NCBI RefSeq assembly: GCF_002210295.1
Contig: NZ_MWQH01000001.1
Coordinates: 682,001-746,000, forward strand
Origin: Fibrobacter sp. UWB5
GTDB taxonomy: Bacteria; Fibrobacterota; Fibrobacteria; Fibrobacterales; Fibrobacteraceae
Direction of reading: 5' to 3'
DNA: 64,000 nt
Positions 45,937 to 59,475 of the stretch are shown here, one piece after another. Position 1 is the first letter of the stretch; each line of letters begins with the position of its first letter. The notes below the pieces were generated by a model. It did not search any database and was not told the origin of the DNA. It saw only the letters and a program-made list of their open reading frames with translations. Position numbers and translations under genes: made by a program.

Positions 45937-47361
45937 TTACTTCGCGATTTTATATCTCAGCTTCAGGTCCTTGGCAGTCGGAACTCTGCCAGAGGCTTCG
46001 TGCTCATGTTCTTTAGAGAAGTGGTTGAGCTTTTGCGTTCCGTAGCCGGCTGCGCGAACAAACTGAGCTTCTTTGGCGAGTTCCACGGCCTTGGCCATCT
46101 GTTCGTCCGGATTGTTGATTTCAAAGTCCGGAACGATTCCCAAGTCATGGTAGCTATCCCAGTTCTTGTCGAAGCCTTGCAGGGCCGTCACTAGGGCGAG
46201 ACCTTCTCCGACTTCGGTCTGGATCACGAGTTGTCCGATTCCCTTTCCGTAAGTCAGCTGGCCCACGACCGGAACTTTGCGGTTTGCCGTCAGTGCCGAG
46301 AGCATGGTTTCGGCGCAGCTTGCCGATCCCGTGTCAGCCATAAAGACGTAGTAGCGGTTCTTGCCAATTCCGTCGCGTTCTGCGGTAACGGTAAGTGTAT
46401 CGAATTTCTGGAAATACTTCATGCCTCGGCCATCGGGAATGGAATCGACCGTGGCTTCGATATCGATCACGACGGTGTCGCCAGCAGAAAGCAGTTCTTT
46501 GGCCATGTTGGCGCACTGTTCGGTTTCGCCACCGGGGTTGTCGCGCAAGTCGATGATCGTGGAGGTGGCGCCTTCGGTCTTTTTGAGGGCTGCCACGAAT
46601 TCTCCATAGGAACCGCTGTCGCTAATCGAGGTCACGACAAATTCCTTAATCAGGATTACCGGAATGGAGTCTTGGTAAGTGAGCTTGACGGAGGGTTCGT
46701 TGTATTCGTCGATAGTCACTTTAATGCTAACCGGTTCCGAGTTGCGGGTGACAACGATGTTGATGACATCGTCTTTGTTGCCGGTGCACATGTTTTCGAA
46801 ATTGTATGCCGAAGTAATGTTAAGGCCATCTACTTGGGTCACGATGTCTCCGACCATCAAGCCGGCTTTTTGTGCCGGAGAACCCGGATAAATTTCGGTT
46901 ATAACCAAGTAGCGGGATGTGGAATCCAGCATTTCTTCAACTTCCGCGCCGATGCCTACGATGGATTCGGATTCCAGAATGCTGGAATAAATCTGGTCTG
47001 CGACAAGGGGGTCGAAATAACGGGTGAAGGGGTCGGCCATCTGGTTGTACATGTAGCACACGTCGTAGTAGTCTGCAGAACAGTAACCCTTGGTACGGCT
47101 GTCTTGGCTTGTTCCCTTGTTCAGGTAGACCTTGTAATCGTCGGCCAGTTCGTTACGCATGTGGGCGTAAATGTAGAACAGGTCGAGCATCTCATAATTG
47201 AAATAGAGTTCGGCTTCGTATTCGTTATTGATGTGTTCCATTTCGGGGAACAAGTCGGCCATAATGTCGCGCTCGTCCGACGAGCTGCTTACGGATTGCG
47301 AACAAGCCGAAAATAAAAATGGTATGGCGCCAAAAATGGCGAGTGTCTTTTTCAGTTTCAT
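45937..47361 (-). CDS. S41-family C-terminal processing protease lipoprotein (downstream copy)
   Basis: 474 aa. Lipobox FLFSAC (C20 area). A helical N-terminal part (~35-115), a PDZ domain (~135-215, PGSPAQKAGLMVGDIVTQVDGL) and the S41 catalytic domain (~225-420). The Ser is in GSASCAE and the Lys in TYGKGIG, 25 residues apart as in CtpA/CtpB-type proteases; DNPGGE is conserved. Likely trims or degrades envelope proteins. The ATG directly follows the TAA of its paralogue (TAAATG). Confidence 0.93.
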   Translation of the reverse strand: MKLKKTLAIFGAIPFLFSACSQSVSSSSDERDIMADLFPEMEHINNEYEAELYFNYEMLDLFYIYAHMRNELADDYKVYLNKGTSQDSRTKGYCSADYYDVCYMYNQMADPFTRYFDPLVADQIYSSILESESIVGIGAEVEEMLDSTSRYLVITEIYPGSPAQKAGLMVGDIVTQVDGLNITSAYNFENMCTGNKDDVINIVVTRNSEPVSIKVTIDEYNEPSVKLTYQDSIPVILIKEFVVTSISDSGSYGEFVAALKKTEGATSTIIDLRDNPGGETEQCANMAKELLSAGDTVVIDIEATVDSIPDGRGMKYFQKFDTLTVTAERDGIGKNRYYVFMADTGSASCAETMLSALTANRKVPVVGQLTYGKGIGQLVIQTEVGEGLALVTALQGFDKNWDSYHDLGIVPDFEINNPDEQMAKAVELAKEAQFVRAAGYGTQKLNHFSKEHEHEASGRVPTAKDLKLRYKIAK

Positions 47362-48696
47362 TTATTCCTCTCCTTCTATAATTGCGCCGCCCAAGTCTTT
47401 GTAACGGCGTAAAATCTGTGGCTCGTTTGCATCGGCTGCACTCTTTTTAAAGGCCGTCTTCGAGGAGCCCTTCTTGCCGTATTTGCTTTCGAGTGCGTCA
47501 AAGCCGCATTGCAGCGATGCTTCGGAACAAGGGTAGTCGGGAATGATTCCCTTTTTGTGGTAGGAATTTCCTTTGGGAGTCAGGAACTCCAGATTCGTAA
47601 TGAGCGAAAGTCCCCCGGCCATTGTCTTCCAGGTACTTTGGCCAATTCCCTTGCCGTAGCTGACTGTTCCTGCGATAGGAATTTCTGCGCCTTCTTGGAG
47701 TGCTACCGCAAAGATTTCAGCACAGCTTGCGCTCCCGCCATTCACGAGTGCCACGAATTTCTTTTTCTCGCCGGCGTCGCCCGGCTTGGCGACCACGGTC
47801 ACCTTGTTGTAAAGGGGCGTGCCGTCGCCTGCAAAGCTTCGCCAGGAGCGGGTTGAGATATTGCCCTTTTCCATGAACAAGTCTGCCATCGCGGTACAGT
47901 GATTTACGTGACCGCCCGGGTTCCCTCGCAAGTCAATGAGTCGGGGTGCCGTCGAGTTCCTGGTCGATTCCAGGTAAGTTGTGAGTTCTCCCAGCGTGCC
48001 GTTCTTCTTGTCGACGGTGTTCAGCTTGAATCCGGTAATGGTGATGATTTCGATTCCGTTCAAGGTGTCGACAAATACGGTCGGAGCGTAAACGTCTTCC
48101 TTGGTCAGTTCGTATGTGTTGGTGTCGCCCGCGTAGGCCACCGTGATCGAAATTTCCTTGTTTTGAGTCAGGACAGAATCGTAGATGTTGAATGCACGGT
48201 CGCCAGAAATTTCGACGCCGTTGACATTCAGGATGTTGCCGTAGCGGGGGATGCCTGCCCTGCCTGCCGGGCTTTCGGGATACACGCGGTAAATGACGAG
48301 CGGGTGCTCCATCTGGTTGAACTGCGTGTATTCCATGCCTACGTCGCCCGGTACAATGCTCGTGTTGATATGCGAGATTGCCGCTTCGCTTTTAGACGGC
48401 GGAACGTAACGGGTGTAGGGGTCGGACAGCTTGTTGTAGAGTTCGTTTACCGAATCGCCCTGTTCATCCAGCAGGGGCAGTTCGTCTTCGAACAGGTAAG
48501 TCTTTTGCAAAAGCCAGTAGTTGAACGAATATTCTGTTGGCGCCGGCGTAGAATCCACCGGCTCGAAAAAATCGCTACAGGCAGTGAGGAAGACGAGAAA
48601 AATGAGATGTGGGATGAGGAATGTGAAATGAGCAATTATTGAATTCTCATTAGTTATTTCACATTTCACATTACTCATTATCCTTTCTCCAACCAA
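47362..48696 (-). CDS. S41-family C-terminal processing protease lipoprotein (upstream copy)
   Basis: 444 aa if the first ATG (48696) is used; ATG 48678 is an alternative. PDZ-like domain (~130-200, PESPAGRAGIPRYGNILNVNG), S41 domain with GGSASCAE and SYGKGIG, Ser-Lys spacing 25. Paralogue of the following gene (same order and lengths). The N-terminal ~40 codons are odd: they come from an AT-rich, partly palindromic stretch (48600-48680) whose translation includes the hydrophobic FLIPHLIFLVFLTAC lipoprotein signal. This suggests an intergenic element was recruited as the signal sequence. Confidence 0.9.
   Translation of the reverse strand: MVGERIMSNVKCEITNENSIIAHFTFLIPHLIFLVFLTACSDFFEPVDSTPAPTEYSFNYWLLQKTYLFEDELPLLDEQGDSVNELYNKLSDPYTRYVPPSKSEAAISHINTSIVPGDVGMEYTQFNQMEHPLVIYRVYPESPAGRAGIPRYGNILNVNGVEISGDRAFNIYDSVLTQNKEISITVAYAGDTNTYELTKEDVYAPTVFVDTLNGIEIITITGFKLNTVDKKNGTLGELTTYLESTRNSTAPRLIDLRGNPGGHVNHCTAMADLFMEKGNISTRSWRSFAGDGTPLYNKVTVVAKPGDAGEKKKFVALVNGGSASCAEIFAVALQEGAEIPIAGTVSYGKGIGQSTWKTMAGGLSLITNLEFLTPKGNSYHKKGIIPDYPCSEASLQCGFDALESKYGKKGSSKTAFKKSAADANEPQILRRYKDLGGAIIEGEE
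48600..48680. repeat. Imperfect palindrome overlapping a signal-peptide region
   Basis: GAATGTGAAATGAG (from about 48619) is mirrored by CTCATTAGTTATTTCACATTTC (to about 48667) around a central GAATTC. Short units AATGTGAAATG and TCACATTTC are repeated. It lies at the 5' end of the S41 gene. Confidence 0.65.
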
Positions 48697-49746: not shown

Positions 49747-51639
49747 ATGGAATTAACCAAATCGCAGGAACGCCGTCTAGCATTTGTGGCTAGCCTCTTG
49801 AGTCTCAATCCCAACGATCCTACTGACCGAATTAAGGCACTCCGGCATCTAAACCTTGATGAAAACGGCTGCTTCCATGGTTTCCAATACTCCCAAGGCT
49901 TTATGGAATTCTTCATCTTCCTCGATGAAGACACTCCGCTCGAAAAGGTCGTTTCCCACCTCAATTCCGACCTGAAACAGCTCCAGATTGCCGTTTTCCG
50001 TACCAGCGACCCTCCTAATCCGTTCTTCATGTCGCTGCGCGAAGAAGCCGACCCCTGGGCTGTGAACAAGATTTCTGATGACGACGAAGACGAAGATGAT
50101 GATTCTCCGGCTAGTCGTCCGTACATGGAAACGCTCGAAATTACGGTTCTCCGTACCCGTGCGACCCGCGATATTACCGACTCCGAACTGGAACGCACCC
50201 TCAAGGATATGCGCCGCAAGCTCGGTATCTGGAAGAACGAAGTCAAGGCAAAACTCGAAATCATTGCCGAACATGACGATTTGACCCGCGATTTCCGCAG
50301 CGCCGACGACAAGCTCGAAATCGTGATGGATTCCGATCCGTTGCACTTGACCAGCGATCACGGCGAACTGTTCCTCGGTTTCTGCCCGATTCGCACGATT
50401 TTTGACTATCACGTGAACCTCGGTAAGCGTCTCAAGACCAAGCACAACATGGCTATCGTCTCGAGCAACATCCGTACTTACCTCGGCAACCTCACTCACA
50501 CGAACGCTGCCTTGATCGATGCCTTCCAGACCATGGAACGCAATGACGACCAGAACGTGAATGTGGACGACTTCCCGTTCCTGCATAACGGTATGACCCT
50601 TACCGGTGATGACCTGCGCCTCAAGGAACGCGACGGCAAGAAGGTTCTCTATATCGAACGTCCGAAGATTATTAACGGTGCCCAGTCCCTGTTCACCTAC
50701 GAACAGTACGCCAAGAAGAGCAAGAAGCCGGTGAACCCGCAGGTGCTCGTGAAGGTGGTGGTGCCGTATCCTGGTGCCGACAACTTCCTGAACCAGGTGA
50801 CCATGGCCAACAACCGCCAGAACCCGGTGTTCAGCTACCATCTGCGTGCTGCTGACGACCTGCAGTTCTTCATTTGGCAGCGTTACCAGGAAGAAGGCTT
50901 TACCTACGTTTATAAGGATGGCGTGCGCCTCAAGGCACGTACCCGTAAGCTCGAAGTGCGTATGCGCCCCGAACTTGCCAAGACCCTCTTCATGATGGAT
51001 GGCAAGCTCAGCGAATGCCGCTCCAGCGACTGCATTTTTGATAAGGAAACCCTGTACCAGCGCTGCTTCGGCGCGTTCGTGCGTGTGTCTCCGGACAAGG
51101 AACGCGACTTCGTGCGCAAGACCATCGCCTTTACCAAGGCATGGCAGCTCCTTAGCCGCTTGCCGATCAAGATTCGCCGCGTGACCCCGGGTAAGGGCGT
51201 GTCTATCGAAGCGAACGACGATAACCCGCTGACTCGTATCACTTGGAACGGCCGCCTCGAAGACAAGTTTATCTTCCGTAGCGCCGTGAAGGACCTGGTG
51301 GTGGCCCTTGCCCTGAAGCACTGGCTCATCTACGGTGACCCGATCCAGGATTTCGAATGGCTGGTCGAAAACGAACTCAACTTCAACGATTCCATCCTCA
51401 AGTATGCTTCCAAGATTTACACCGAAGACTTGAAGGGTATCCTGATTTCTGAATTCAAGGACAATCCGGCTTACTACGACACCATCACGACGATTGACAA
51501 GGATTCCGGTGAATCCGTGGAACGTCGCCTGTGGAAGGGCTTTGCCAATACCGCCACTTACGACAAGATGATGGATCTTCTGTGCAAGAAGAACCGCACC
51601 TGGGAAAAGTGCCGCGGCGGTATCGAAGTATTCCTTTAA
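49747..51639 (+). CDS. AIPR-family protein (abortive phage infection related)
   Basis: 630 aa. The AIPR core is recognised by RPKIINGAQSLFTYEQY (~305-321), followed by VLVKVVVPYP and VTMANNRQNPV (~350-362), the usual INGxQT...N-x-QNP arrangement. An acidic run (SDDDEDEDDD, ~108-117) lies in the N-terminal part. No transmembrane segment. AIPR proteins were named from lactococcal abortive infection systems and are often next to restriction or other defence genes; here it is monocistronic, flanked by an LRR gene and lipoproteins. A house-keeping role cannot be excluded. Confidence 0.85.
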   Translation: MELTKSQERRLAFVASLLSLNPNDPTDRIKALRHLNLDENGCFHGFQYSQGFMEFFIFLDEDTPLEKVVSHLNSDLKQLQIAVFRTSDPPNPFFMSLREEADPWAVNKISDDDEDEDDDSPASRPYMETLEITVLRTRATRDITDSELERTLKDMRRKLGIWKNEVKAKLEIIAEHDDLTRDFRSADDKLEIVMDSDPLHLTSDHGELFLGFCPIRTIFDYHVNLGKRLKTKHNMAIVSSNIRTYLGNLTHTNAALIDAFQTMERNDDQNVNVDDFPFLHNGMTLTGDDLRLKERDGKKVLYIERPKIINGAQSLFTYEQYAKKSKKPVNPQVLVKVVVPYPGADNFLNQVTMANNRQNPVFSYHLRAADDLQFFIWQRYQEEGFTYVYKDGVRLKARTRKLEVRMRPELAKTLFMMDGKLSECRSSDCIFDKETLYQRCFGAFVRVSPDKERDFVRKTIAFTKAWQLLSRLPIKIRRVTPGKGVSIEANDDNPLTRITWNGRLEDKFIFRSAVKDLVVALALKHWLIYGDPIQDFEWLVENELNFNDSILKYASKIYTEDLKGILISEFKDNPAYYDTITTIDKDSGESVERRLWKGFANTATYDKMMDLLCKKNRTWEKCRGGIEVFL

Positions 51640-51960: not shown

Positions 51961-53775
51961 ATGAGTTCTAAAAAGATTAACCTCAGAAAATCTCTTGCAT
52001 TTGCAACTGTATCGACCTCCTTGGCGATGGTTGCGTGCGATTTTAGTGCCGATACGACCGTCAAGGCTTCGGACGATCCGACACCCGGTCCGGTGTCCGA
52101 ATTGCCGGAAGGCGCCTTCTTGCAGGTAAATACGCTGGAAGATTTGCCGAACTGTACGCCGAGCCGCGAAGGCAAATCGGCTTACGTGAACATCAGCAAT
52201 TCCGTTTATGTCTGCTCCAATGAACGTTGGACCAAGGCGAGCGTGACCATCGATCCGATCGTTCCTCCGGAAGAAAGTTCTTCGAGCATCGGCGAAATTG
52301 TCCCGGAAACATCGAGTAGCGGACTTGTTCCGCCTCCGCCCCCGCCTCCGTATTATGACTGTTTCCAGACGTGGTACGGCACCGAAAGCGTTTATCGAAT
52401 CGAAACGGGCTTTGACAATGGTTCCGAAACTTCGGGTTACTGGTTCGCTTACGGGGACGACGCCGATGGCGGTGCGTCAAGAATCATCTGGCCTGTTCCC
52501 CCCGGAAACGAGTATGACGAAAATGCTTTTGACCCGATTATCGATCATTGTGGCGGCATTTGCGGCACCTATTATCTAGATCATGGCGGTAACTTGGTAT
52601 ATGATCCGTTCGTAGGCGTCGGCTTCAGTTTGGCCGGATACGATAATAACGGTATCATCACGGTGGTTGATGCCTCTAGCATGGGTGGCATTCGCATTAC
52701 CTATACGTCCGATGCTCCTGCCGTGCTGGAACTGGGCATGGGCGACTATATGGATCAGAAAGTGGGTTACGACGTTCCGTTCGTAACCCTCCCGAAGGCG
52801 ACTGCTCCGACCACGAAGGTGTTTACCTGGGCTGATTTCAAACAGGCCGGTTGGGGCTCGGGTAAGATCACTGGCGAAGAAGCCGCAACCATGCTTGCTG
52901 TAATCAAGTTCAAGATCCAGAGCAAGAGCGGTTCGACCGGTAGCTTCAACATCATGGCCATTGGTGCCTTTGATGAAACCTGCTCCAGCTATATTCCGCC
53001 GATGCCGCGCTCTTCTTCGAGCTTTGTCCCGCCGGAACCCAAGTCTTCTAGCAGTTTCTACGTGCCGTATTACGGCTTTGAAACTTGGTATGGTTACGAA
53101 GGCGTTTACAAGATTGAAACGGGTCTTGACGCCGGTGAAGATATGTCGGGTTACTGGTATGAATTCAACGATGCTGTTGATGGCGGCGAATCGAAGATTA
53201 TTTGGCCCGTTCCGAAGGGTACCGAATGGGACGACAATGCCTTGGATCCGATTATCGATTACTGCGCTGGCGTTTGCGGTACCTACCAGCTTGAACAGGG
53301 CAAAATGGACTACAACCCGTTTGTCGGTATAGCCTTCGATATTGCTGGCCCGGCAGATTACTGGGATGGCCCCGCTGTCGCGGCTGACGCCTCTGCAATG
53401 GGTGGCTTGTGCATCGCCTACACCTCTGACTTTGCTGCAAGCCTTGAATTAGGTCTCTCCGATGAAAAGGAAGCAGAAGTCGGTTACGATATTCCGTTTG
53501 CATCGCTCCCGAAGGCAACTTCCGTCGTGGTGAAGGATATTCCGTGGAGCAGCTTCAAGCAGGCTGGCTGGGGCACGGGTAAGATTACCGGTGAAGAGGC
53601 TGCTGCGATGCTGAAGAGCGTTCGCTTCAAGATCCAGGGCAAGGACGGTATGACCGGTAGCTTCAACGTGATGTCTGTGGGCGCCCTTGGTGGCGGTTGT
53701 TCTGCAGAACGCTATTTTACCGTTATTCCGACCGTAGATGTTGTTAAGCTTAATGAAAAAAAGATTGACCGTTAA
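51961..53775 (+). CDS. Two-domain surface lipoprotein, paralogue 1
   Basis: 604 aa. Signal with lipobox SLAMVAC (C26 area). A short conserved N-terminal unit (VNTLEDLPNCTPSREGKSAYV, ~60-95) with a Cys pair is followed by Ser/Pro linkers and two ~205-residue repeats (A ~135-340, B ~368-585). Each repeat shows F-x-T/D-W, ETG, GYWY/F, a DD-x-DGG-x-S-x-I-x-WP motif, D-x-I-I/D-x-C-x-G-x-C-G, and a final K-x-F-x-W-x-x-F-K-Q-A-G-W-G segment. The end of each looks like a galactose-binding jelly roll, so carbohydrate binding is a reasonable guess. Linkers are Ser-rich. No catalytic domain. Confidence 0.88.
   Translation: MSSKKINLRKSLAFATVSTSLAMVACDFSADTTVKASDDPTPGPVSELPEGAFLQVNTLEDLPNCTPSREGKSAYVNISNSVYVCSNERWTKASVTIDPIVPPEESSSSIGEIVPETSSSGLVPPPPPPPYYDCFQTWYGTESVYRIETGFDNGSETSGYWFAYGDDADGGASRIIWPVPPGNEYDENAFDPIIDHCGGICGTYYLDHGGNLVYDPFVGVGFSLAGYDNNGIITVVDASSMGGIRITYTSDAPAVLELGMGDYMDQKVGYDVPFVTLPKATAPTTKVFTWADFKQAGWGSGKITGEEAATMLAVIKFKIQSKSGSTGSFNIMAIGAFDETCSSYIPPMPRSSSSFVPPEPKSSSSFYVPYYGFETWYGYEGVYKIETGLDAGEDMSGYWYEFNDAVDGGESKIIWPVPKGTEWDDNALDPIIDYCAGVCGTYQLEQGKMDYNPFVGIAFDIAGPADYWDGPAVAADASAMGGLCIAYTSDFAASLELGLSDEKEAEVGYDIPFASLPKATSVVVKDIPWSSFKQAGWGTGKITGEEAAAMLKSVRFKIQGKDGMTGSFNVMSVGALGGGCSAERYFTVIPTVDVVKLNEKKIDR
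53203..53279 (+). repeat. 77-bp block shared with paralogue 2
   Basis: One mismatch to 55212-55288. It encodes the WPVPKGTEWDDNALDPIIDY part of repeat B; identity far exceeds that of flanking DNA. Confidence 0.9.
53625..53685 (+). repeat. 61-bp block shared with paralogue 2
   Basis: Identical to 55634-55694, coding for the KIQGKDGMTGSFNVMSVGA end of repeat B. Confidence 0.9.
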
Positions 53776-53802
53776 TTTTTAGGGATTATCCTTACAGAAG
53801 CG

Positions 53803-53843
53803 GCTCCCGGTTGCGTATAGAATTTGCATCCGGGAGCTTTTTT
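53803..53843 (+). terminator. Intrinsic terminator between paralogues 1 and 2
   Basis: GCTCCCGG (53803-53810) / CCGGGAGC (53830-53837) with a 19-base loop, then TTTTTT. Confidence 0.85.
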
Positions 53844-53846
53844 GTT

Positions 53847-53852
53847 TATATT
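53847..53852 (+). promoter_or_regulatory. Putative -10 box TATATT before paralogue 2
   Basis: TTATATTC just after the terminator T-run, 33 bases before ATG 53886, with AGGAGG in front of the start. Confidence 0.35.
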
Positions 53853-53885
53853 CATGGATGTCAAGTGTAAACAGGAGGAATTCAA

Positions 53886-55757
53886 ATGCGCGGGGATATG
53901 CTTTTGATGAAGGCTTTGCCTTTTGCCGTTCTTTCAGCATCGCTTGCCATGGTGGCTTGCGATTCCGGTTCTGATTCCGGTGATTCCCGTGATAATAACC
54001 CCGCGACGCCAGTGGACGTTGTGGACGATTTTTCTAGCAGCGATTCGATGAATACGGCAAGTGTCGAGACGGTTGAAGATTTGCCCAATTGTACTGAACG
54101 CCGCAACGGTAATTTGGCTGTCGTGCTTAGTGAAGACGCCATATACCAGTGTAGTGCAGGACGTTGGGCTAAAGTTACCGTGGTGCCGGAAAAGAATTCA
54201 TCTTCAAGTATAACGCCTTCGGGAACCCTGTCTTCAAGTTCTAGCAATGAAACTTCCTTGATATCGAGTTCTAGCGATAAAAATCCTATGACTTGGAGTT
54301 CGTCTTCGGAGTCTACTGGGGCCGCCCACTGTTTTGAAGATTGGGATGGCTACGCAATGGATTACCAGATTGCAACCGGCTATGACAATGGTTCTGGAAC
54401 GTCGGGTTATTGGTATTCCTTTGGCGATGACGCTGATGGAGGCATGTCGACGATTGTTTGGCCTGTTCCGGCAACCGAATCGCCCGATGTATTAGATGCG
54501 ATTATCGACTTTTGTGGTGGTGTTTGCGGAACCTTCGAACTTGCCAAGGGTTCTTTAACATACGACCCTTATGCTGGGGTGGGATTTAATATTGCAGGAG
54601 TAGATGAGAATGGCTATCCTACAACGGTAGATGCTTCGGCAATGGGCGGTATCAGTGTGACTTACTCCTCGAGTATGGGGGCGACCTTGGAACTTGGCTT
54701 GGGCGAAGAAATGGATCGCAGTATAGGCTACGACAACCCGTTTGTTGTACTTCCCAAAAACACAAATGGTACTGTGAAAGAGTTTAAATGGTCCGAGTTT
54801 AAACAGGCGGGCTGGGGAGACGTTGAGATTACCGGTGAAGAGGCTGCAAAAAAACTCGCGTCTATTCGCTTTAGAGTACAAGGCAAAGATGGCTCTAAAG
54901 GTGAATTCAATATTAAGGCGATCAAAGCGTATAATCCTAGTGATTGCAATAAGTACAATCTGCAAAAATCCAGCAGCAGCTTTGCACCAAAATCTAGCGG
55001 TAGTGTGAAGCCTAAATCTAGTAGTTCTGTGCCTAGGTCCAGCAGCAGTAGAGATGTTTCGGACAAGGTAGGGAAATGCGGGCAGTTTGAGACTTGGCGT
55101 GGTGACTATGGAATGTATCGAGTTGAAACGGGCTGCATTACCGAAAAGGAAAATGGCGGTTATTGGTATAGCTTTGATGACTACGTTGATGGTGGTCGCT
55201 CAAAAATAGTGTGGCCCGTTCCGAAGGGTACCGAATGGGATGACAATGCCTTGGATCCGATTATCGATTACTGCGCTGGCGTTTGCGGCAAATTTGAACT
55301 GAATAAAGGAACAATGACTTTTGATCCCTATGTTGGAGTCGCGTTTGATTTAGCTGGCACCGATGATAAGGGACGCCTCGTTGCAGTAGATGCCTCTGAT
55401 ATGGAAGGGATTTGTATCGCTTATTCAGCCGATGTTGGGGCTTCCCTAGAAATATCGTTTGGCGAAAAAAATGACATCGAGGAATTTGATTACGACGTCC
55501 CGTTTGTCACGCTAGCCAAAAGCACAAGTGGTACTGTGAAAGCGTTTAAATGGTCTCAGTTTAAACAGGCTGGCTGGGGACGGAACGCAAAAATTACAGG
55601 CGAAGATGCCGCCAAGAGAATTGTTTCGCTTCACTTCAAGATCCAGGGCAAGGACGGTATGACCGGTAGCTTCAACGTGATGTCTGTGGGCGCCTTGGGT
55701 GGCGACTGCTCTGGCTACGTGGCCGTTTGGGCAGATAAGAACGTGAAGAACTGGTAA
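53886..55757 (+). CDS. Two-domain surface lipoprotein, paralogue 2
   Basis: 623 aa. N-terminus MRGDMLLMKALPFAVLSASLAMVAC is nearly identical to paralogue 3 because of a shared 199-bp repeat. The N-terminal unit (VETVEDLPNCTERRNGNLAVV) and Ser linkers match the family; domains A (~150-355) and B (~395-610) keep GYWY, DDADGG/DYVDGG, WPVP and the Cys pair (FCGGVCG, YCAGVCG). Two blocks of domain B are nearly identical in DNA to paralogue 1, so this gene is a mosaic: start like paralogue 3, end like paralogue 1. Own promoter and terminator are likely. Proposed role: anchoring or binding of polysaccharide at the cell surface (inference). Confidence 0.88.
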   Translation: MRGDMLLMKALPFAVLSASLAMVACDSGSDSGDSRDNNPATPVDVVDDFSSSDSMNTASVETVEDLPNCTERRNGNLAVVLSEDAIYQCSAGRWAKVTVVPEKNSSSSITPSGTLSSSSSNETSLISSSSDKNPMTWSSSSESTGAAHCFEDWDGYAMDYQIATGYDNGSGTSGYWYSFGDDADGGMSTIVWPVPATESPDVLDAIIDFCGGVCGTFELAKGSLTYDPYAGVGFNIAGVDENGYPTTVDASAMGGISVTYSSSMGATLELGLGEEMDRSIGYDNPFVVLPKNTNGTVKEFKWSEFKQAGWGDVEITGEEAAKKLASIRFRVQGKDGSKGEFNIKAIKAYNPSDCNKYNLQKSSSSFAPKSSGSVKPKSSSSVPRSSSSRDVSDKVGKCGQFETWRGDYGMYRVETGCITEKENGGYWYSFDDYVDGGRSKIVWPVPKGTEWDDNALDPIIDYCAGVCGKFELNKGTMTFDPYVGVAFDLAGTDDKGRLVAVDASDMEGICIAYSADVGASLEISFGEKNDIEEFDYDVPFVTLAKSTSGTVKAFKWSQFKQAGWGRNAKITGEDAAKRIVSLHFKIQGKDGMTGSFNVMSVGALGGDCSGYVAVWADKNVKNW

Positions 55758-55784
55758 TTTTTAAGGATTATCCTTACAGAAGCG

Positions 55785-55825
55785 GCTCCCGGTTGCGTCT
55801 AGAATTTGCATCCGGGAGCTTTTTT
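55785..55825 (+). terminator. Intrinsic terminator between paralogues 2 and 3
   Basis: GCTCCCGG (55785-55792) / CCGGGAGC (55812-55819), then TTTTTT; same structure as at 53803. Confidence 0.85.
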
Positions 55826-55828
55826 GTT

Positions 55829-55834
55829 TATATT
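55829..55834 (+). promoter_or_regulatory. Putative -10 box TATATT before paralogue 3
   Basis: Copy of the box at 53847 within the 199-bp repeat, 33 bases before ATG 55868. Confidence 0.35.
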
Positions 55835-55867
55835 CATGGATGTCAAGTGTAAACAGGAGGAATTCAA

Positions 55868-57721
55868 ATGCGCGGGGATATGCTTTTGATGAAGGCTTTG
55901 CCTTTTGCCGTTCTTTCAGCATCGCTTGCCATGGTGGCTTGCGATTCCGGTTCCAATTCCAATGAATCTCGAAATGACAATCCGGTATTGCCGGAAAATC
56001 CGGTTGGCGACGGTTCTAATATCGCAGCTGTTGAAACGGCTGAGGACTTGATGAACTGTACCGAAAGCCGTGAAGGCAATATGGCTAAGGTGCTAAGCGA
56101 AAATGCCATCTACGAGTGTGTGGATGAACGTTGGAGCAAGGTAACTGTTATTGAGACGTTGCCGAGAGACACTTTGTCAAATGGGATTTCATCGAGTGGA
56201 ACTTCGTTGATTGAAATTTCGTCAAGTGAAACGTCGCCGAGTGAAAATTCTTCGGCTGGCGAAACACAGATGTCCAGTTCCTCGACGGATTCAAACGTTC
56301 CTTCGCCTGTAAAATCGGCGCATTGCTTTAAAGCGTGGGATCCTACGGCGTTCGAGTACTCGATTTATACGGGCTACGACAACGGTACTGAAACCTCTGG
56401 CTACTGGTACACTTATGGTGACGATTCCGACGGAGGTATGTCCACAATTACATGGCCGGTTGAAATGGACCCTCCTTTTATGGATGGCATTGATCCGGTT
56501 ATTGACCATTGCGGCGGTATTTGCGGAACATACATGCTCGACAAGGGAACCTTGTCATACGACCCGTTTGTTGCCTTGGGCTTTAACTTGGGTGGTGAAG
56601 AGACTCCGGGAAATCCCGTATCGGTCGACGCCTCGGCCATGGGTGGAATTGTTGTGACTTATACTTCCGATGCGCCAATCCGCCTCGAAATGGGACTTGG
56701 CGAAGCAAAGGACAAGCATATAGATTACGACAATCCGTCTGTTACGCTTCCGAAATCAGTTACGAAAACGGTCAAGGCTTTTTCGTGGAGCCAGTTCAAA
56801 CAGGCGGGCTGGGGCTCGAAGCAAGTCTCGGGTGAAGAAGCATCTAAAATCTTGGTCGCGCTCCATTTCGTAATCCAGGGCAAGGACGGTGCGAAAGGCG
56901 AGTTCAATATTATGAGTATCGACGCTTACAATCCAGGGGATTGTGCTGCATTTGTGCCTCCCGTCTATTCGTCTAGTTCTAAAAACATGAGCTCTAGTAG
57001 CAGTAAGCCTTCTTCAAGTTCCAGCAGTAGCAATGGAACGTCTGTTGTCATTAAGCCGGCCTACTCTTTTGAAACCTGGAATGGTGCCGAAGGCGTTGAA
57101 CAAATCATGACGGGATTTGATACGGATATGCAAGATGGGGGCTATTGGTATGAATATGACGATTCCGAAGATGGCGGCAAGTCGTCCATTGCATGGCTGG
57201 CACCTCTGGGCAATGAATATGATGAAAAGTCATTTCAGCCGGTAATCGATGTCTGCTCAGGTGTTTGTGGAACGGTCCAGCTGGACGCAGGTGACTTGCA
57301 ATATGATCCGTACGTAGGCATTGGCTTTGATTTGGCCGGTCATGATATAAATAGGAACCTTGTTCTGGCGGATGCCTCCGGCATGGGTGGCGTATGTATT
57401 GGATATTCTTCGGAGATGTCGTTCACGATTGAAATGAGCCTTGGTGAGGCCAAAGACAGGGAACTTGGATACGATATTCCGATTGTCAGAATGCCGAAGT
57501 CGTCTTCGTACGTTGTAAAGAAAATCCCCTGGAGTAATTTTAAACGGTCCGGCTGGGGAGGGGGCGAGAACGTTACGGGTGAACAGGCTGCCAAGATGCT
57601 CGGCTCGCTCAGGTTTAAATTCCAGGGTAAGGATGGCGTTTCGGCCAACTTCAACATTGTGTCGATTGGCCCCTACCTTAATGGATGGTGTGAGGAGTCG
57701 TTGGCGCCTGTGCTTCAGTAA
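55868..57721 (+). CDS. Two-domain surface lipoprotein, paralogue 3
   Basis: 617 aa. Same plan: lipobox SLAMVAC, conserved N-terminal unit (VETAEDLMNCTESREGNMAKV), long Ser/Thr/Glu linker (~95-145), domains A (~150-360) and B (~395-605). Domain A keeps GYWYTYGDDSDGG and HCGGICG; domain B is more divergent (EYDDSEDGGKSSIAWLAP, VCSGVCG) and ends with SWxNFKRSGWGGG-like sequence instead of FKQAGWG. It lacks the near-identical blocks that paralogues 1 and 2 share. No clear terminator separates it from the carboxyltransferase gene 134 bases downstream. Confidence 0.87.
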   Translation: MRGDMLLMKALPFAVLSASLAMVACDSGSNSNESRNDNPVLPENPVGDGSNIAAVETAEDLMNCTESREGNMAKVLSENAIYECVDERWSKVTVIETLPRDTLSNGISSSGTSLIEISSSETSPSENSSAGETQMSSSSTDSNVPSPVKSAHCFKAWDPTAFEYSIYTGYDNGTETSGYWYTYGDDSDGGMSTITWPVEMDPPFMDGIDPVIDHCGGICGTYMLDKGTLSYDPFVALGFNLGGEETPGNPVSVDASAMGGIVVTYTSDAPIRLEMGLGEAKDKHIDYDNPSVTLPKSVTKTVKAFSWSQFKQAGWGSKQVSGEEASKILVALHFVIQGKDGAKGEFNIMSIDAYNPGDCAAFVPPVYSSSSKNMSSSSSKPSSSSSSSNGTSVVIKPAYSFETWNGAEGVEQIMTGFDTDMQDGGYWYEYDDSEDGGKSSIAWLAPLGNEYDEKSFQPVIDVCSGVCGTVQLDAGDLQYDPYVGIGFDLAGHDINRNLVLADASGMGGVCIGYSSEMSFTIEMSLGEAKDRELGYDIPIVRMPKSSSYVVKKIPWSNFKRSGWGGGENVTGEQAAKMLGSLRFKFQGKDGVSANFNIVSIGPYLNGWCEESLAPVLQ

Positions 57722-57855
57722 CGGCATGGGTTCTTCCTACAAACTACTTGCATCTTACTTATTTAAACAAAAAGAAACAAAAGTCGTTGACTAGCGCAAC
57801 GGCTTTTTCTAATTTTGGCTACGAAAATCTTACAAGTACAGGAGTTCTTTACAAA

Positions 57856-59475
57856 ATGTGGAACGAAAAGTATATCGCTAAGCTGGATAGCTACCTGGCC
57901 CAGGCCCAGGCAGCCGGTGGCGCTGCCCGTGTCGATAAGCAGCACCAGTCCGGAAAGTGCACTGCCCGCGAACGCATGGAAATGCTGTTCGACGAAGGTT
58001 CGTTTGTTGAAGTCGGTGCACTCCGCAAGTCGAGCAACCGCGTGCTCAAGGAAAGCAAGGTCGTCCTGGGTGACGGCGTCGTGACCGGTTACGGCAAGGT
58101 GAATGGCCGTCTGGTGTTTGCCTCTTCTCAGGACTTTACGGTGGGTGGCGGCTCCTTGGGCCAGTGCCATGCCGAAAAGATTTGCCGCGTCATGGACATG
58201 GCTGTGGAAGCCGGTGCCCCGTTTGTTGCCATGAACGATAGTGGTGGAGCTCGTATTGACGAAGGCGTGTTCTCGCTCGCTGGCTATAGCGCCATCATGG
58301 CCCGCAACGTGTGGGCTTCCGGCGTGATTCCTCAGATTGCCGTGATCATGGGCCCCTGCGCTGGTGGCGCCTGCTATTCTCCGGCTCTCAGCGACTTCAT
58401 TTTCATGACCCAGAACACCAGCCAGATGTTCTTGACTGGCCCGGCTGTCGTGAAGCAGGTGATGGGTGAAAACATCACCGCTGCCGACCTCGGTGGCGCT
58501 CCGGTGCATACCTCCAAGTCCGGCGTGGCTCACTTCATGTACGAAGACGACAAGAAGTGCCTTGAAGGTGTCCGCAAGCTCCTTAGCTACTTGCCGCAGA
58601 GCAACCGCAAGGAATCTGCCGAATGCAACTGCAAGATTGCCGAAGCCGCCAAGAACGACGAAGGCTTCTTCAAGAAGCTGTTCTCCAAGTCCGAATCGAA
58701 CGAAGTGGCCGCTTCCTTCGACAACAGCGCTTCTATCCAGGACATTGTTCCGGATAACTACAAGCAGGCCTACGACGTGAAGTCCGTGATTGCGGCCTTT
58801 GCCGATGCCGACAGCTTTTTTGAAGTGCAGAGCGACTGGGGCAAGAACGTGGTGATCGGCTTTGCCCGCCTGAACGGCGAAGCGATCGGTATCGTCGCTA
58901 ACCAGCCGAAGGTGCTCGCCGGTTCCTTGGACGTGGACGGTTCCGACAAGGCTGGCCGCTTTGTCCGCTTCTGCGACGCGTTCAACATTCCGCTCCTCGC
59001 CCTCGCAGACGTTCCGGGTTACATGCCGGGTTCCAAGCAGGAATACTCGGGCATTATCCGCCACGGTGCAAAGCTCCTTTACGCCTTTGCCGAAGCGACC
59101 GTGCCGAAGGTGACGCTCATTCTGCGTAAGGCTTTCGGTGGTGCTTACATCGCCATGAACAGCAAGGACGTGGGGGCCGACTACGTGTTCGCCCTCCCGA
59201 TTGCCCAGGTGGCCGTGATGGGTGCCGAAGGTGCCGTGGAAATCATCAACAAGAAGGAAATCGCTGCTGCTCCGGATCCGGCTGCTGCTCGCGCCCAGTG
59301 CATCGCCAAGTACGAAGAAGAACTGATGAACCCCTACGTTGCTGCCTCCATGGGCGTGGTCGACGAAGTGATTCACCCGGCCGATGTTCGTAAGCGCCTC
59401 ATTACCGCTTTCGATGCCTTGAAGACCAAGGAACAGAAGAGGCACTGGAAGAAGCACGCCAACATCCCGCTTTAA
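57856..59475 (+). CDS. Acyl-CoA carboxylase carboxyltransferase subunit
   Basis: 539 aa from ATG 57856; upstream in-frame codons to 57748 do not match the family. It begins WNEKYIAKLDSYLAQAQAAGG, with GKCTARERMEMLFDEGSFVEV and two crotonase-like halves carrying NDSGGARIDEG, GPCAGGACYSPALSDF and VLRKAFGGAYIAMNSK. This is the propionyl-CoA carboxylase beta / methylmalonyl-CoA decarboxylase alpha type. In a succinate- or propionate-forming bacterium it could carboxylate propionyl-CoA or decarboxylate methylmalonyl-CoA with a biotin protein; no biotin carrier or membrane decarboxylase subunit is in the window, so direction is open. Confidence 0.94.
   Translation: MWNEKYIAKLDSYLAQAQAAGGAARVDKQHQSGKCTARERMEMLFDEGSFVEVGALRKSSNRVLKESKVVLGDGVVTGYGKVNGRLVFASSQDFTVGGGSLGQCHAEKICRVMDMAVEAGAPFVAMNDSGGARIDEGVFSLAGYSAIMARNVWASGVIPQIAVIMGPCAGGACYSPALSDFIFMTQNTSQMFLTGPAVVKQVMGENITAADLGGAPVHTSKSGVAHFMYEDDKKCLEGVRKLLSYLPQSNRKESAECNCKIAEAAKNDEGFFKKLFSKSESNEVAASFDNSASIQDIVPDNYKQAYDVKSVIAAFADADSFFEVQSDWGKNVVIGFARLNGEAIGIVANQPKVLAGSLDVDGSDKAGRFVRFCDAFNIPLLALADVPGYMPGSKQEYSGIIRHGAKLLYAFAEATVPKVTLILRKAFGGAYIAMNSKDVGADYVFALPIAQVAVMGAEGAVEIINKKEIAAAPDPAAARAQCIAKYEEELMNPYVAASMGVVDEVIHPADVRKRLITAFDALKTKEQKRHWKKHANIPL

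Follow-up and report, generated by a model that had tools for sequence, protein, structure and literature searches.

A divergent branch of CBM11/CBM30-type modules in Fibrobacter lipoproteins encoded at a variable locus

Three adjacent genes of Fibrobacter sp. UWB5 encode lipoproteins that each carry two copies of a module without a named family. They lie in a stretch of 64,000 nucleotides of contig NZ_MWQH01000001.1 (positions 682,001 to 746,000), to which we refer as the window. The modules probably represent a cysteine-bearing branch of CBM11/CBM30-type carbohydrate-binding modules (CBMs) that has been amplified in Fibrobacter, and the proteins would function as cell-bound lipoproteins that bind beta-glucan and whose modules recombine. 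A sequence-only reading of the window had described a repeat of about 205 residues in six copies, two per lipoprotein. The number and arrangement of the copies hold, but their length is 213-217 residues. The copies share about 45-62% pairwise identity over 203-216 aligned residues, and BLASTP E-values of 2.8e-93 to 8e-65 exclude a chance likeness. Of the sequence marks in that reading, GYW[YF], C-x-G-x-C-G and FK-x-x-GWG are present in all six copies. The I-x-W-P mark occurs in five, the last copy having I-x-W-L, and ETG or ATG in four, the last two having YTG and MTG (in order: ETG, ETG, ATG, ETG, YTG, MTG). DD-x-DGG appears as DDADGG, DDADGG and DDSDGG, alternating between N- and C-terminal copies with the deviating forms DAVDGG, DYVDGG and DSEDGG. 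FK-x-x-GWG does not close the domain as had been supposed; it sits near residue 160 of 215, inside the fold, and is followed by about 45 residues comprising two strands and a conserved cysteine.

To place the family, the window proteins were compared with Pfam, NCBIfam and PDB sequences; the matches, such as OprF (0.0087) and class F sortase (0.015), did not exceed chance level. A search of PDB sequences with the family profile found nothing. At the Pfam and NCBIfam thresholds the earlier statement that no named family is recognizable is thus correct, and the link to CBM11 rests on a profile of cousin modules and on folds. This cousin profile (A4) was made from 38 CBM11-like modules, namely N-terminal modules of GH5-type proteins and modules of other large proteins of Fibrobacteraceae, and contains no sequence of the window family. 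It matched the three window proteins with E-values of 1.4e-32, 5.1e-32 and 5.4e-26 and each of the six single copies with 1.8e-17 to 4.3e-11. At E<=10 it matched none of 3,650 controls, which were reversed or shuffled sequences. In the reverse direction, the window-family profile matched a GH5 N-terminal module at 9e-15. These profile comparisons make the repeat a homologue of the CBM11-type modules on Fibrobacter GH5 cellulases. Positions common to the cousins and the first copy include W27, D32, G37, S39, L72, G75, P82, Y114, Q161, W164 and G165.

An AlphaFold2 model of the module, calculated from an alignment of 110 copies, reached a predicted local distance difference test score (pLDDT) of 95.9 and a predicted template modelling score (pTM) of 0.91. 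The model shows both the CIA30 fold and a CtCBM11-type jelly roll. The top solved fold was CIA30 (7zkq; Z 14.1, root-mean-square deviation (rmsd) 3.1, 168 residues aligned), and CtCBM11 (1v0a) gave VIA Z 13.1, rmsd 2.8 and 150 aligned residues, with a Foldseek E-value of 1.8e-5. CBM29 scored Z 11.3, and CBM30 (1wmx), with Z 9.7, lies under CBM11 and CBM29. An A4 cousin modelled as a control (pLDDT 93.8) gave Z 16.2 and 21% identity to CtCBM11 1v0a and 17.6 to CIA30. Pfam CBM_11 (PF03425) matched none of the three window proteins at E<=1 and only one of 110 family members (E 0.098). This Pfam model is narrow, because the 38 cousins, GH5-borne ones included, lack a CBM_11 match as well. Pfam CIA30 (PF08547) also matched none of the window proteins at E<=1; 27 of the 38 cousins had a match, the best at 5e-8, as did 14 of 110 family members, the best at 2.2e-5, which makes it the commonest Pfam family among the members. 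By profile and predicted structure, the repeat belongs to the CBM11/CBM30/CIA30 jelly rolls as a divergent branch, which falls outside Pfam CBM_11 by its cut-off. The earlier guess of a galactose-binding-type jelly roll and a CBM gains support from both lines of analysis, with sugar binding itself remaining a prediction from sequence and model.

Searching the whole genome with the first copy gave 15 matches, comprising 13 family modules and two cousins. Six of the modules are those of the window and two belong to secreted proteins on contig C7; the others lie on contigs C8 (one), C2 (one), C4 (one) and C6 (two). One cousin is the module at the N-terminus of a GH5 cellulase (E 6e-7), the other the N-terminal part of a cadherin-repeat protein (E 6e-4). 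A quick tree places the three N-terminal copies of the window in one group and the three C-terminal copies in another (SH-aLRT 90 and 84), so the two-module layout is probably older than the gene duplications, and exchange has kept the two positions apart. The signal peptides of all three lipoproteins end in ...LAMVA-C, which we judged by eye to be a lipobox. Between signal peptide and first module lie about 110-130 residues with a small two-cysteine hairpin and a Ser-rich linker. The hairpin (residues ~60-95, L-x-N-C-T-x-x-R-x-G…Y-x-C-x-x-x-R-W) lies ahead of the linker in each of them, and other Fibrobacter carriers (L049, L051, L053) have stretches like it.

Table 1. Lipoprotein genes, modules, repeated heads and flanking genes, in window positions. 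Modules are numbered by gene; N and C denote the N- and C-terminal copy.
Feature	Position	Strand	Description	Basis
Lipoprotein gene 1, 604 aa	51961..53775	+	signal peptide, lipobox Cys26, two-Cys hairpin, Ser-rich linker, two CBM11-like modules	ORF; direct reading
Lipoprotein gene 2, 623 aa	53886..55757	+	layout as gene 1, lipobox Cys25	ORF; direct reading
Lipoprotein gene 3, 617 aa	55868..57721	+	layout as gene 1, lipobox Cys25	ORF; direct reading
Module 1N	52363..53007	+	Cys pattern CCC--C	profile match, cysteine table, modelled structure
Module 1C	53077..53727	+	Cys pattern CC-C-C	profile match, cysteine table
Module 2N	54333..54971	+	Cys pattern CCC--C	profile match, cysteine table
Module 2C	55086..55733	+	Cys pattern CC-C-C	profile match, cysteine table
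Module 3N	56327..56968	+	Cys pattern CCC--C	profile match, cysteine table
Module 3C	57068..57715	+	Cys pattern CC-C-C	profile match, cysteine table
Repeated head, first copy	53773..53978	+	gene 1 end, intergenic, gene 2 signal peptide	blastn of slot vs itself
Repeated head, second copy	55755..55960	+	before gene 3	blastn of slot vs itself
Upstream flank	49747..51639	+	AIPR-family protein (PF10592), 97.6-99.5% identical in other occupied genomes	
Downstream flank	57748..59475	+	carboxyltransferase (PF01039), 96.9-99.0% identical in other occupied genomes	

Cysteines were counted in 222 unique near-full copies. The pair C-x-x-x-C (profile columns 62 and 66) is coupled, with both residues present in 187 copies, neither in 31, only the first in four and only the second in none. 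Column 109 is Cys in 207 copies, and all 15 copies that lack C109 also lack C151. A C-terminal Cys was found in 116 of 121 copies without C151 compared to 51 of 101 with C151 (Fisher p 9e-16; as the copies are related by descent, p values overstate their independence). An N-terminal Cys is present in nine of the 15 copies without C109, all nine of which keep the C-terminal Cys, and in 47 of the 207 copies with C109. The simplest reading of these counts implies a C62-C66 disulfide and a second one formed alternatively by C109 and the C-terminal Cys, by C109 and C151, or by the N- and C-terminal Cys. The window copies fit this putative scheme, the three N copies as the N-/C-terminal type and the three C copies as the C109-C-terminal type. 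Of the 222 copies, 51 show an odd pattern at the six Cys positions and could be accommodated only with an additional Cys. In the cousins, Cys residues occur close to the corresponding position and at the C-terminus, each in 58%.

The first profile matched 127 of 167 Fibrobacterota genomes (E<=0.001), most densely in Fibrobacter; weak matches in other families may be cousin modules. In a scan of named genomes, 79 loci were kept, all titled Fibrobacter except for one from a Prevotella metagenome-assembled genome (MAG). This lone copy outside Fibrobacterota (L109, Prevotella sp. MAG RGIG9954) has a C-terminal type I dockerin and adjoins another dockerin protein, and is a possible transfer to a Bacteroidota host. 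Among 170 unique carrier open reading frames (ORFs), some of them cut by locus ends, 88 hold one copy, 60 two, 19 three and three four. Export signals were counted by pattern in the 163 carriers with at least 20 residues ahead of the first copy. A lipobox-like motif was found in 114, 97 of which also have a Ser run, and a tail resembling that of the type IX secretion system (T9SS) in 42; four carriers have both. By these patterns there are two export forms in Fibrobacter, predicted Ser-linked lipoproteins and predicted secreted single-module proteins with a T9SS-type tail. The secreted pair in the genome of strain UWB5 scored 24.2 and 24.3 bits against TIGR04183 (cut-off 23). Some carriers fuse the module to Fib_succ_major domains, and one (L047) also holds a Cthe_2159 carbohydrate-binding domain.

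The genes of the two forms have different neighbours. The secreted pair of the own genome is located between two GH8 genes. For other species the analysis started from 38 tailed proteins, of which four yielded no called gene; among 119 unique neighbours, 15 belonged to the family themselves and were excluded. On one side the immediate neighbours were GH5 (12 of 27), GH43 (3 of 27) and GH8 (2 of 27) genes; on the other side GH8 genes accounted for 13 of 28. Upstream of the 80 lipobox carriers whose locus includes the preceding gene we found a TIGR02147-type gene on the same strand in 20 cases (spacing -26 to +10 nt), another family gene in 29, an AIPR gene in four and other genes in 27; one further AIPR-preceded gene (L082) was scored as non-lipoprotein by pattern. 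Overall, 23 of 24 TIGR02147 (Fsuc_second) genes in the own genome (L187-L210) are followed on the same strand, at about -56 to +22 nt, by a lipoprotein-like gene. L193 is the sole exception; the partner lipoproteins are otherwise diverse, and four lipoboxes were judged by eye. From the gene order, TIGR02147 genes and downstream lipoproteins would constitute a regulator-lipoprotein pairing. An N-terminal domain with a KGPF-x-KG motif is found in a family carrier and in TIGR02147-paired lipoproteins (L054, L191, L199).

The three window genes fill a slot between an AIPR-family gene and a carboxyltransferase gene, the content of which varies among Fibrobacter genomes. We compared 19 genomes, the window and 18 with close flanks; G008, G122, G123, G124 and G125 (adjacent by coordinates) were left out. 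Family genes occupy the slot in eight of them, with three in the window, two each in G129 and G009, and one each in G149, G151, G152, G004 and G029, the last with a single module. In G127 an unrelated Fib_succ_major protein takes the place of a family gene, and in ten genomes the slot is empty, the distance to the beginning of the carboxyltransferase match being 18-252 nt. The flanks barely change. Over the 28 pairs of the eight occupied genomes, AIPR has a median identity of 99.2%, a synonymous rate (dS) of 0.30 and a ratio of nonsynonymous to synonymous rates (dN/dS) of 0.031, and the carboxyltransferase 98.3%, 0.21 and 0.041. The AIPR-family gene is present in 78 of 80 Fibrobacter genomes, with dN/dS 0.03 among eight; although the family is named for abortive-infection phage resistance, it behaves here as a core gene. 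Nearby are two tandem S41 peptidase genes (45937-48696), of which the one at 47362-48696 is only 67-87% identical in four loci, its neighbours being 95-99% identical. As this gene varies too, the slot marks the extreme within a variable region and is not an island in perfect quiet. MAG chimerism was considered as the cause of the slot's variability; variation is also seen among genomes with few contigs (G004, 10; G000, 17; G128 and G029, ~20).

Divergence within the slot is uneven from module to module. Between the window and G129, fourfold-degenerate sites differ by about 20% in the flanks, but by 1.1% in 2N, 8% in 1C, 41% in 1N and 61% in 3N. Gene 2 of G129 is a mosaic, with a head that matches 55755-56329 (the head of window gene 3) at 99.1% identity, a first module 96.0% identical to 54324-54946 (the 2N region of window gene 2) and a second module 74.7% identical to 56876-57744 (window gene 3). 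The first joint coincides with the border of module 3N (56327). G151 and G004 have flanks of 99.7-100% identity; their C modules agree at 95%, whereas their N modules are 21% different. The repeated heads of genes 2 and 3, which share 98.1% identity over 206 nt, are possible crossover sites. We give even chances to the proposal that the slot is a module-shuffling locus, in which recombination at repeated heads and domain borders swaps whole modules between the tandem genes and between Fibrobacter species. If so, each lineage would obtain its own cell-bound glycan-binding or antigenic repertoire.

Between genomes, slot modules range from near-identical down to ~40% identity, with dS from 0.05 to beyond 1. 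Their median dN/dS is 0.28 over 25 between-genome pairs with dS under 1, far above the 0.03-0.04 of the flanks. This ratio, the presence or absence of zero to three genes with mosaic modules, and the unrelated protein in the slot of G127 would all suit a reading in which the modules are surface antigens first, built on a CBM-derived fold, with diversity selected (e.g. by phage or predator recognition) and sugar binding secondary or lost. We regard this as unlikely, since the median lies well under 1 and positive selection (dN/dS over 1) was not found in any of the 25 pairs, the highest value being 0.73 in a pair with dS 0.056. Also, replacements between close alleles are not clustered on a binding face or in a hot loop of the module (1,040 of 2,000 permutations were as extreme). 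In addition, the secreted GH8-linked copy has a dN/dS of ~0.2, so that the rapid change is in part a property of the family at large.

The beta-glucan-binding reading assigns the following roles to these parts. With a lipid anchor at the N-terminus, then a Ser-rich stalk and two jelly-roll modules in series, each window lipoprotein looks like a tethered binder, which would be exposed at the cell surface. The modules would most likely bind chains of beta-glucan in plant fibre, either cellulose or mixed-linkage glucan, and so keep the cell attached to the fibre close to the cellulases that it secretes; a pair of modules on each of three proteins could provide avidity. The parallel secreted form, with one module and a T9SS-type sorting tail and encoded between cellulase genes, may do likewise for the enzyme layer. 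Replacement and reshuffling of whole modules in the slot would then let species differ in their module set. A beta-glucan ligand is indicated by the cellulase-borne homologues, the secreted form beside GH5 and GH8 genes, and the co-occurrence of other carbohydrate-binding parts. According to PMC6851124 and PMC3079729, enzyme-borne CBM11/CBM30 of F. succinogenes S85 are credited with binding cellulose as single chains.

Several observations weigh against this assignment. H102 and H117 (numbering of the cousin reference), invariant or nearly so in the cousins, are not conserved in the window family, and the DDFEDGD start of the cousins is lost; the ligand may therefore differ or be lost. An Asp follows the lipid Cys in all three window lipoproteins. 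In E. coli, Asp at this position retains a lipoprotein in the inner membrane, a rule that may or may not extend to Fibrobacter. Pfam scans covered few of the 170 unique carriers, and in these no member of the cysteine-bearing branch was fused to a catalytic domain. According to PMC6851124, 40 of 49 quantified putative lipoproteins of S85 were down on cellulose. Additionally, in the models CIA30 is as close in fold as CBM11, and because CIA30 is a complex I assembly factor, a non-sugar ligand is possible.

This last point leads to a second alternative, in which the modules are structural elements of the envelope and have a protein or a surface glycan of the cell itself as ligand, comparable to CIA30 and its assembly partners. 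CIA30 being both the top structural and the commonest Pfam match agrees with such a role, and so do the fusions to Fib_succ_major domains. The sequence links, on the other hand, lead to a GH5 cellulase module and the secreted form adjoins GH5 and GH8 genes, which makes this alternative rather improbable, slightly more so than the antigen reading. That the domain is an enzyme, of whatever activity, is very improbable. Its conserved Asp/Glu/Gly motifs (DGG, ETG) might suggest catalysis, though no analysis backs this; the fold and the homologues are those of binding modules and share the conserved positions W27, D32, G37, S39, P82, Q161, W164 and G165.

F. succinogenes needs contact with cellulose and its manner of attachment is still argued; we know of no cellulosome in this species. 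The fold and the general role of the window family are of already known kinds. As far as our literature searches show, the family itself, its two export forms, the alternative disulfides and the module-swapping slot are new. Searches on novel CBMs in Fibrobacter gave none on the window family, by title, those on hypervariable or shuffling loci gave nothing on the window slot among the matches listed, and TIGR02147 together with Fibrobacter succinogenes gave nothing. A family member may already be among the cellulose-binding proteins of Jun et al. 2007, as cited in PMC4668043. For S85, the CBM-only genes without catalytic function number just seven in the list of Suen et al. (PMC3079729), who expect 'other unidentified modules'. 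The window family would add a large, so far unnamed CBM-type set, with 13 modules in the own genome, in lipid-anchored and secreted forms. With the variable slot it can be asked whether the surface diversity of rumen fibre degraders is driven by the specificity of fibre binding or by pressure from phages and predators.

Compared with known systems, the window family resembles CBM11 (CtCBM11 of C. thermocellum Lic26A-Cel5E and the GH5-borne modules of Fibrobacter) in the jelly roll, in profile homology and in the W/D/G/S/P/Q/W/G positions. It differs in lying under Pfam CBM_11 detection, in an extra helix and C-x-x-x-C that replace a loop, in not keeping the cousin histidines, and in its carriers, which are lipoproteins or tailed proteins. 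With CBM30 (C. thermocellum Cel9D-Cel44B) it may share the fold class, at a structural score under that of CBM11. The S85 'CBM30-only' protein Fisuc_1525/FSU_2007, a small secreted CBM-only protein reported from envelope and medium proteomes, is similar by description. CIA30/NDUFAF1 is the best structural match and has weak Pfam matches in the family, but is a mitochondrial complex I assembly factor, whereas the window encodes lipoproteins that are exported. Large exported sets of paralogues are also formed by the fibro-slime and the Fib_succ_major (TIGR02145/PF09603) surface proteins of Fibrobacter, and Fib_succ_major domains are fused to the module in some carriers; these are unrelated domain families, and Pfam and NCBIfam gave none of these domains in the window proteins. 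Although they concern other proteins and organisms, with no link by descent, the restriction specificity genes of H. pylori (domain movement) and the recombining lipoprotein loci of Borrelia, as described in PMC3077401 and PMC11389397, are comparable to the slot in their whole-domain exchange or recombination at variable genes for recognition or surface proteins.

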